Shown: positions 789-1,927 of the stretch, in pieces
Position numbering within the stretch: the first letter of the stretch is position 1
Layout of the letters: each line of letters begins with the position of its first letter
Assembly: GCA_027001525.1 (NCBI GenBank)
Contig: JALTMR010000526.1
Span: 1-22,007, forward strand
DNA length: 22,007 nt
Source of the DNA: Gammaproteobacteria bacterium
GTDB taxonomy: Bacteria; Pseudomonadota; Gammaproteobacteria; Tenderiales; Tenderiaceae
Direction: 5' to 3'
Made by a program: the position numbers and the translations under genes
The notes under the pieces: model-generated
What the model saw: only the letters and a program-made list of their open reading frames with translations
What the model was told of the DNA's origin: nothing
Database searches by the model: none

Positions 789-1217
789 TTAGCGACGCTT
801 TTTAATCTCGACCTCACGCGCCTGCTGTGCCACCCGGTCCAGCACACCATTGACGTATTTATGACCCTGGTCGGCACCAAACAGCTTGGCCGCTTCAACG
901 GCTTCGTTAATGGCGACGCGGTAGGGAACTTCGGGTTTGTGGATCAGCTCAAAGGCGCCCAGACGCAATACGGCACGCTCAACGGGGTCAACCTCTTCCA
1001 TGGGACGATCGAGGTAGGGCTGCACCTGTTCATCCAACTGGACGAGGTTTTCAACCACGCCAAACAGGAGTTCTTTGAAATACTCGGTATCAAATTTGGT
1101 GGTATTGCGCTCCACCAGGAACTGCTTGAAAATCTCTTCCACATTGTTGCCGCTTATCTGCCACTCATACAGCGACTGAACAGCACAATTGCGTGCTTTG
1201 GAACGTGCCCGACTCAA
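789..1217 (-). CDS. nusB: Transcription antitermination protein NusB
   Basis: NusB binds boxA RNA together with S10/NusE and supports antitermination on rRNA operons. The 142-residue product has the family length and landmarks: an Arg/Lys-rich start (SRARSKARNCAVQSLYEWQ), LDRPMEEVDPVERAVLRLGAFEL in the middle, VPYRVAINEAVEAAKLF, and the closing KYVNGVLDRVA. The start codon is TTG at 1215-1217, preceded by a good Shine-Dalgarno (AGGAG, 7 bases upstream); no nearby ATG gives a full-length protein. It is the last gene of the rib block. The usual gammaproteobacterial followers thiL and pgpA are absent; the convergent mqo-like gene comes next. A MITE-like element separates it from ribH. Confidence 0.95.
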   Translation of the reverse strand: MSRARSKARNCAVQSLYEWQISGNNVEEIFKQFLVERNTTKFDTEYFKELLFGVVENLVQLDEQVQPYLDRPMEEVDPVERAVLRLGAFELIHKPEVPYRVAINEAVEAAKLFGADQGHKYVNGVLDRVAQQAREVEIKKRR

Positions 1218-1284
1218 AGGACTCTCCTAGTATTAAAGAACGAAATAACAACTGGCACACAACGCCCGTTCGGCGCTGCGCGAT

Positions 1285-1288
1285 TTAC
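1285..1288. repeat. Target-site duplication, left copy (TTAC)
   Basis: TTAC abuts the left terminal inverted repeat. The matching copy abuts the right one at 1448-1451. Without element and duplication the ribH-nusB gap would be 67 bp instead of 230 bp. Confidence 0.6.
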
Positions 1289-1447
1289 GGGCACCTCTAT
1301 TAATTCATGAATGGGCATCTTAAACCCCAAATCCGCCACATCGGCGTTGCAAATTTTGGCAATAGTCCCGCTATTACCCGCAATTTGCGCCTGGATGTAA
1401 CGAATTTGGGATTCAATCTGCCGCACCCAGAGTTAATAGAGGTGCCC
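1289..1447. mobile_element. 159-bp MITE-like imperfect palindrome with 15-bp terminal inverted repeats
   Basis: The element starts GGGCACCTCTATTAA (1289-1303) and ends with the exact reverse complement TTAATAGAGGTGCCC (1433-1447). The two 77-bp arms are the same length and match at about two thirds of positions by hand alignment without gaps. They meet at a centre AATAG-tcccg-CTATT (1361-1375). TTAC occurs directly on both sides (1285-1288 and 1448-1451), as expected for a 4-bp target duplication. It encodes no transposase. Short open frames crossing it start or end in flanking DNA and look like chance. I read it as a non-autonomous element (MITE) that can fold into a long hairpin in the ribH-nusB transcript. 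The parent transposase family is unknown to me; the identity as a mobile element is inference from the ends and duplication. Confidence 0.75.
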
Positions 1448-1451
1448 TTAC
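1448..1451. repeat. Target-site duplication, right copy (TTAC), containing the ribH stop codon
   Basis: On the - strand this copy reads GTAA: the last base of the ribH Met codon plus its TAA stop. The insertion therefore duplicated the stop codon and left RibH intact. Confidence 0.6.
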
Positions 1452-1927
1452 ATCTTGTCGATGTTGTCCAGCAGGCTGACCATCTCAATGGCCGAGAGCG
1501 TGGCCTCCACCCCTTTGTTGCCCGCCTTGGTGCCGGCCCGCTCAATGGCCTGCTCGATGGTATCGACCGTCAGGACACCGAAGGCGATGGGCAGGTCGTG
1601 CTCCAGGCTGACGCTGGCCAGCCCCTTGGTGCATTCCCCTGCGACATAATCAAAATGGGGCGTACCACCGCGGATGACGGCACCGAGGGCGATCACGGCG
1701 TGGTGGGCTTTTTTCGCCGCAACGCGCTTGGCCAGCAGCGGCAGTTCGTAGGCGCCGGGGGCATAGAAAACGTCGATATCATCGACGCGACCACCGTGCC
1801 GGACGATGCAGTCGATGGCGCCGCTGACCAGGTGGTCGACAACGAAGCTGTTAAAACGCCCGGCGATGATCGCAAAACGTCTACCTGTGGCATTAAAATC
1901 ACCTTCTATACGAGTGACATCAGTCAT
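1448..1927 (-). CDS. ribH: 6,7-dimethyl-8-ribityllumazine synthase
   Basis: RibH condenses 5-amino-6-ribitylamino-uracil with 3,4-dihydroxy-2-butanone 4-phosphate to give lumazine, the penultimate riboflavin step. The 159-residue product is of normal length and very like enterobacterial RibH. It has the [15 protein letters not shown] start region, YAPGAYELP (around residues 55-63), the [14 protein letters not shown] catalytic loop with His91 as the likely catalytic base, and the closing [18 protein letters not shown] at 1925-1927 is preceded by AAGGA about 9 bases upstream. It lies 53 bp after ribB on the same strand. Its TAA stop sits inside the duplicated target of the adjacent MITE-like element, so the coding sequence ends exactly at the insertion. 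Confidence 0.97.

Follow-up and report, generated by a model that had tools for sequence, protein, structure and literature searches.

The common view of palindromic MITEs is that they are passive remnants in which the hairpin merely follows from the ends; YTAR is the target rule of the IS5 group. Like the MITEs mobilised by IS5-family transposases, the element between ribH and nusB described here is short, carries no gene of its own, has ends common to IS5-family elements of other genomes, is flanked by a 4-bp duplication that is mostly YTAR-like across its copies, and occurs in many copies together with internally deleted forms. It differs from them in that its family has a conserved, strand-specific fold of fixed length, and in that the core is also found behind other ends (L258, L259, see below). 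ERIC repeats, compared here by description, differ from it in length and in sequence. They resemble it in being a palindromic MITE (127 bp) with orientation-dependent effects on neighbouring transcripts, according to the passages on them in PMC2229807. QMITE1 and QMITE2 of Coxiella are gammaproteobacterial as well, and the relevant sections of PMC5896051 describe a full-size and a small form, transcripts that fold strongly and copies overlapping the 3′ ends of genes, and speak of purifying selection on the stem; the 7–9 bp duplications given there for QMITE2 set it apart, this comparison also being made by description. Correia elements (CREE, NEMIS) of Neisseria are of similar size, have two size forms (PMC2229807) and give foldable transcripts that RNase III can cut (PMC10969869), but have other ends, with TA at the termini (PMC2229807), as far as the sections of these papers on the elements go. 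No paper describing the present element family was found among open-licence PMC papers.

The window, that is, the whole stretch of 22,007 nucleotides that was analysed, contains one copy of the element, whose features are collected in Table 1.

Table 1. The element and its neighbourhood in the window, in window positions.
Feature	Positions	Strand	Remarks and basis
MITE, 159 bp	1289..1447	-	strongly folding strand (strand Y) is minus, sense for ribH-nusB
Terminal inverted repeat GGGCACCTCTATTAA	1289..1303	+	
Second terminal inverted repeat	1433..1447	-	matches the first exactly as its reverse complement
Target-site duplication TTAC, copy 1	1285..1288	.	GTAA on the minus strand
Target-site duplication TTAC, copy 2	1448..1451	.	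holds the ribH TAA stop
Internal loop, 5′ side	1389..1394	-	CCAGGC in the window copy, CAAGGC in most members; sequence and alignments
Internal loop, 3′ side	1346..1348	-	AAC bulge of AACGC; sequence and alignments
Conserved apical hairpin TAATAGC-loop-CTATTG	1359..1376	-	alignments and fold
ribH, upstream of the insertion	1448..1927	-	ORF list, RibH comparison
nusB, downstream of the insertion	789..1217	-	TTG start as listed; ORF list

The first-pass annotation had proposed a 159-bp MITE-like element at this place, which is borne out by its multi-copy state, its ends and its flanking repeats. The 15-bp ends are exact inverted repeats and the arms are of equal length, as had been stated; the pairing of the arms is imperfect, an inverted-repeat search giving arms of 61 nt with 74% complementarity. 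Insertion at the ribH stop, with the stop copied and RibH left unchanged, is confirmed by the TTAC (GTAA) on both flanks, which contains TAA: the ribH reading frame ends with the TAA within the right-hand GTAA of the minus strand. The widening of the ribH–nusB gap from 67 to 230 bp also agrees with the arithmetic (230 = 67 + 159 + 4).

In the predicted fold of the minus-strand RNA the element pairs over nearly its whole length, with -95.6 kcal/mol and a z of -12.15, and none of 200 shuffled sequences folded as well; the plus-strand fold is weaker (-70.1 kcal/mol, z -8.37). On this model the ribH–nusB mRNA should carry a strong hairpin, as the annotation had suggested. No T run was seen by eye 3′ of the hairpin, where the minus strand reads GTAAATCG (directly adjacent, GTAAATCGCG), so that it does not look like an intrinsic terminator. 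Searches of Rfam 15 gave no match for window positions 1200–1520 at E up to 1, and none at the gathering score for nine other element loci. A coding origin of the element was considered and set aside: open reading frames are present on both strands, but the alignments appear to vary by pairing.

The assembly that holds the window (2.75 Mb in 583 contigs, 88.3% complete) contains 23 stretches of the same family of at least 133 bp, the window copy included; 2 are truncated and 21 essentially full length (89–100% identity), and the search of the host genome that had been proposed as a check thus shows the element to be multi-copy. An exact 4-bp repeat flanks 16 of the 21 full-length copies, L020 being counted after a 2-base shift of its end. 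The same genome also has short, internally deleted forms of 44–75 bp that lack the core. Of 11 short forms examined, 7 have an exact flanking repeat, so that the core is not essential for insertion. The 74–75 bp forms have a nearly identical internal junction, which means that a short form has spread in its own right. BLASTN of the element against plasmids gave no match.

Across 11 genomes, 53 of 101 copies have an exact 4-bp repeat, which is YTAR in 34 of these 53; the TTAC/GTAA of the window copy falls outside this pattern. The family has inserted at stop codons repeatedly: among 52 copies there are 12 whose duplicated 4 bp overlap a called stop, where T..A sites in the non-coding parts of the same loci would lead one to expect 4.2. 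The YTAR preference, which holds TAA and TAG, must itself account for some of this excess.

The first-pass annotation had suggested looking for a transposase gene with matching ends. A transposase search in genomes with the same ends led to two IS5-family elements in other genomes, L187 and L190. L187 is 1272 bp long, has exactly GGGCACTTCTATTAA at both ends and is flanked by repeats of ATTA; L190 is 1254 bp long, has the ends GGGCACCTCTATTTA and GGGCATCTCTATTTA, which differ from each other by one base, and is flanked by repeats of ATAA. Their transposases pass NF033581 with 295.4 and 242.7 bits, respectively (cut-off 140), and both contain PF01609 and PF05598. A PF01609 search in genomes of the family also yielded the IS5-like elements L116 and L120, whose ends are related, not equal. 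In the host assembly there is one PF01609 protein, without matching ends, and the L187 transposase has no match in that genome; elsewhere it is found partially in G002 (pieces 58–59% identical) and more weakly in G006, G007 and G010. The suggestion therefore held for other genomes but not for the host assembly, from which a repeat such as the IS can be missing because it consists of 583 contigs. With ends common to autonomous IS5 elements, a 4-bp duplication, multiple copies, no transposase gene inside and empty sites in relatives, the element is, judged by its sequence, an IS5-type MITE whose mobilisation by an IS5 transposase is probable.

The ribH–nusB gap was compared in 10 relatives from the same family, a check that had also been proposed. 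None of the 10 has the element there, their gaps being 21–105 bp; the element is therefore neither single-copy everywhere nor present at the same site in all relatives, two circumstances that would have spoken against a mobile element. The ribH stop of the relatives is TAA in 5 and TAG in 5. The single GTAA target expected of element-free relatives is present at the stop in 2 of the 10 and lacking in the other 8, and their RibH proteins are 71–80% identical to that of the window, so that the exact empty target is seen only indirectly. A comparison of RibH with viral contigs gave no relative.

In two of the relatives, other family members lie elsewhere in the rib operon. With gene names assigned by reading, a family member is located between ribE and ribBA in L054 (G010; 1494–1651) and a 73-bp form between ribBA and ribH in L060 (G009; about 1461–1535). 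Among the 11 genomes, the rib operon thus has three separate element insertions, that of the window included.

Conservation of the fold was studied in two alignments. The first, A1, comprises 32 copies from 11 genomes, found by BLASTN or by the end pattern and aligned with MAFFT without structure. It leaves out 15 of the 21 host-genome copies for balance, six loci with inserts or with ends that were hard to place (L055, L060, L066, L067, L068 and L146), and L182, which is located where its contig stops; L065, L070, L074 and L076 were not extracted, and the start of L056 was placed by hand. RNAalifold assigned 61 pairs in A1, 42 of them with double changes. In an APC-corrected G-test 28 of the 61 pairs exceeded the 99th percentile of other column pairs and 17 the 99.9th, and the ten top-scoring column pairs of the whole alignment were all structural; after moving the partners by 1–3 columns, 1 to 7 (of 58–59 pairs or fewer) remained above the 99th percentile. 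A covariance model, R1, was built from A1. The second alignment, A4, has one copy each from 32 genomes, 28 of the 32 rows being picked by this model, which favours paired copies. It gave 64 pairs, 55 with double changes; 45 of the 64 lay above the 99th percentile, compared with 2 to 4 after a shift by 1–2 columns, and 92.8% of its cells were paired, against 73.0% when shuffled and 35–43% when slid. Copies in A4 are 156–161 nt long, and the common fold spans about 160 nt, with the internal loop CAAGGC/AACGC and with pairing that runs through the ends.

The pairing is markedly unequal between the strands. With the outer 18 pairs left out, G-U pairs outnumber A-C 201 to 24 in A1 (G-U more frequent in 11 of 11 genomes) and 171 to 26 in A4 (in 32 of 32 rows). 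The same strand is the more stable one in 101 of 101 copies from 11 genomes, of which 80 were model-picked, leaning to the fold, and the 21 host-genome copies and A1 were not. With a DNA energy model this strand is favoured in 99 of 101 copies, at a mean difference of -6.4 kcal/mol against -22.2 with RNA parameters. In MITEs that have these ends but other cores the strands do not differ steadily, for example in a 121-bp cyanobacterial one (-33.4/-32.5 and -34.3/-34.3) and a 247-bp one from Sedimenticola (-99.3/-98.4 and -104.5/-106.2). Elements of 263–281 bp that hold two oppositely directed cores are close to balance or favour one strand or the other. Pairing is kept on one strand only, apparently by selection. 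Given compensatory changes above background and strand-specific wobble pairs, the inside of the element, and not its ends only, is by these comparative data a conserved strand-specific fold.

When this selection may act is suggested by the distribution of derived states at paired sites. Of the states common to at least two copies, 62 preserve pairing on the favoured strand alone, 16 on the other strand alone and 23 on neither; for private states the corresponding numbers are 70, 61 and 109; the difference between 62:16 and 70:61 has a Fisher p of 1.9e-4 (0.0027 without the host genome), with shared and private states called within genomes against the majority consensus and not on a tree. As shared states keep the fold and private ones do not, selection seems to act while the element spreads: private changes, mostly arising after landing, look neutral, and the spreading lineages would have kept the fold.

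Orientation relative to genes is also biased. Genes were called by a home-made program that uses codon usage. Of 56 copies between tandem genes, 43 have the favoured strand antisense and 13, the window copy among them, have it sense (p 7e-5). G024 (4 sense, 1 antisense) and G237 (2 to 1 sense) are exceptions, and a cruder pooled test made earlier, on copies that were in part the same, came out at 20 to 11 (p 0.15). A GC-skew (replication-strand) bias was not seen around 40 copies (15 vs 25, p 0.15), so the orientation bias follows genes and not replication. The proposal in the first-pass annotation that such elements can be genome-wide regulators of 3′ ends, taken here as regulation by a sense hairpin, is not supported, the strong strand being antisense in most tandem cases.

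The exact 15-base ends are present in 15 of 369 genomes of the class. R1 matched 88 of 274 class genomes at E ≤0.001 and 34 at E ≤1e-15; we relied on these 34 as members and did not count weak R1 matches. Among 249 genomes of the phylum, 19 matched at E ≤1e-12, 17 of them in one family of another class. R1 matches on a Gallionella contig (14–34 bits, G+C up to 0.73) look like unrelated hairpins and were rejected. An 18-base end pattern also matches elements with other cores in Cyanobacteria, Fibrobacteres and Methylotenera, so that ends alone do not define the family.

Several related elements deserve mention in their own right. On the chromosome of a Gloeomargaritales cyanobacterium (OV696605.1) the loci L295, L302, L321, L324, L334 and L338 contain a 121-bp MITE with the same ends and another core. 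L144, L145, L156 and L164 (G140, G265) are 263–281 bp long with the same 15-bp ends, several of them with two R1-like cores on opposite strands, and elements of this type fold at about -155 to -175 kcal/mol. L172 (G067; 2094–2334) has one element of a related type inside another: a GGGAACCTCTGATTAA element has entered the loop of a GGGCACC one, at CTAG. L258 (1501–1656) has the same core between GAGACCTTTGCACG-type ends with 24 exact inverted bases, and L259 (1501–1661) has it between other inverted ends with at least 40 exact bases. The occurrence of one core behind different ends suggests that the core outlives its ends.

We consider it probable that the element is a MITE moved by an IS5-family transposase, whose conserved one-strand fold helps its propagation or its toleration, most likely as RNA. 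The transposase would act on the 15-bp ends and duplicate 4 bp, often YTAR, and one such event, as the sequence shows, struck GTAA at the ribH stop, duplicating the stop and leaving RibH intact. The fold would serve the propagation of the element, or its toleration as it spreads, and not the host at each site. It most likely acts as RNA from the favoured strand, probably recognised via the loop CAAGGC/AACGC; the same data allow single-stranded DNA, and RNA is preferred in view of the size of the asymmetry under RNA parameters and of an orientation bias that goes with genes. That this strand is usually antisense to its neighbours would then be explained by selection against strong hairpins in mRNA. 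Several points count against this explanation: transcription of a full-length RNA would have to begin outside the element, the folding strand is mostly antisense, the host assembly has yielded no transposase with matching ends, core-less short forms have been inserted, the orientation bias is uneven, A4 and 80 of the 101 copies were chosen by a covariance model, the DNA energy model shows the asymmetry too, and the repeat at the window copy is not YTAR.

More tentatively, we speculate that the family could be one of transposons whose spread depends on a strand-specific fold, likely RNA with a recognised CAAGGC/AACGC loop, and whose core swaps ends between transposase systems, with Correia elements perhaps a distant branch. 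The gonococcal L372 has CAAGGCG and CAACGC placed as in the internal loop of the element. R1, run on two gonococcal stretches, gave 9.0 bits (E 0.041 in 828 bases) on one, and the element was not found on the other; with these values and with different ends, the window element was rejected as a Correia element, and the likeness is only a lead from sequence. In both L371 and L372 of Neisseria gonorrhoeae the CAAGGCG/CAACGC motif flanks the Correia core at the position of the internal loop. Separately, NZ_CP119142.1 and NZ_CP119140.1 are 2.17-Mb gonococcal records filed as plasmids, whose size looks chromosomal.

The integron attC site offers a comparison for single-strand folding. Somewhat as there, the selected form could be single-stranded DNA of one strand, for example in replication or repair, with the paired ends giving the transposase a duplex to cut. 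Pairing that passes through the ends, selection that shows on propagating copies and the agreement of the DNA model on the favoured strand (99 of 101 copies) are consistent with this. Yet the transposases of the IS5 family belong to the DDE enzymes (PF01609), RNA parameters give a far larger asymmetry, the orientation bias follows transcription and shows no GC-skew counterpart (15 vs 25 of 40), and short forms without the core have also been inserted, all of which makes selection on single-stranded DNA rather improbable.

We give still less credence to an origin of the pattern in template switching between the arms, correcting an old palindrome with no selection on the fold. The element family is palindromic, and template switching needs no selection to produce double changes. 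Monttinen and Loytynoja 2022 (PMC8794818) propose that this process maintains RNA stems and explains asymmetric base-pair frequencies. Acting on both strands, it should however make G-U and A-C match in elements of both orientations, which 171 against 26 does not; it should also reach private changes, which break the pair about half the time, and other MITEs with the same ends, the 121-bp cyanobacterial and the 247-bp Sedimenticola ones, have no steady strand difference.

Least credible is a host regulator whose 3′-end hairpin serves as a processing or attenuation signal, as the first-pass annotation had proposed: the -95.6 kcal/mol hairpin that the window mRNA should carry, the stop overlap of 12 of 52 against 4.2 expected, and RNase III cleavage of Correia transcripts and orientation-dependent ERIC effects in the pertinent parts of PMC10969869 and PMC2229807 would suit it, but in 43 of 56 tandem cases the strong strand runs antisense, private changes do not preserve the fold, the site is empty in relatives and no T run follows the hairpin.

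The inside of the element, besides its ends, bears the marks of a conserved, one-strand structured molecule in 34 of 274 class genomes and, in another class, in 17 genomes of a single family. Comparing shared with private changes makes it possible to ask at what stage a MITE is under selection, during its movement or at the site where it is seated. If the fold matters for movement, it would provide a testable link of RNA or single-strand folding to DDE transposition. For ribH and nusB, the result amounts to a concrete prediction that a strong hairpin should lie between the two genes.
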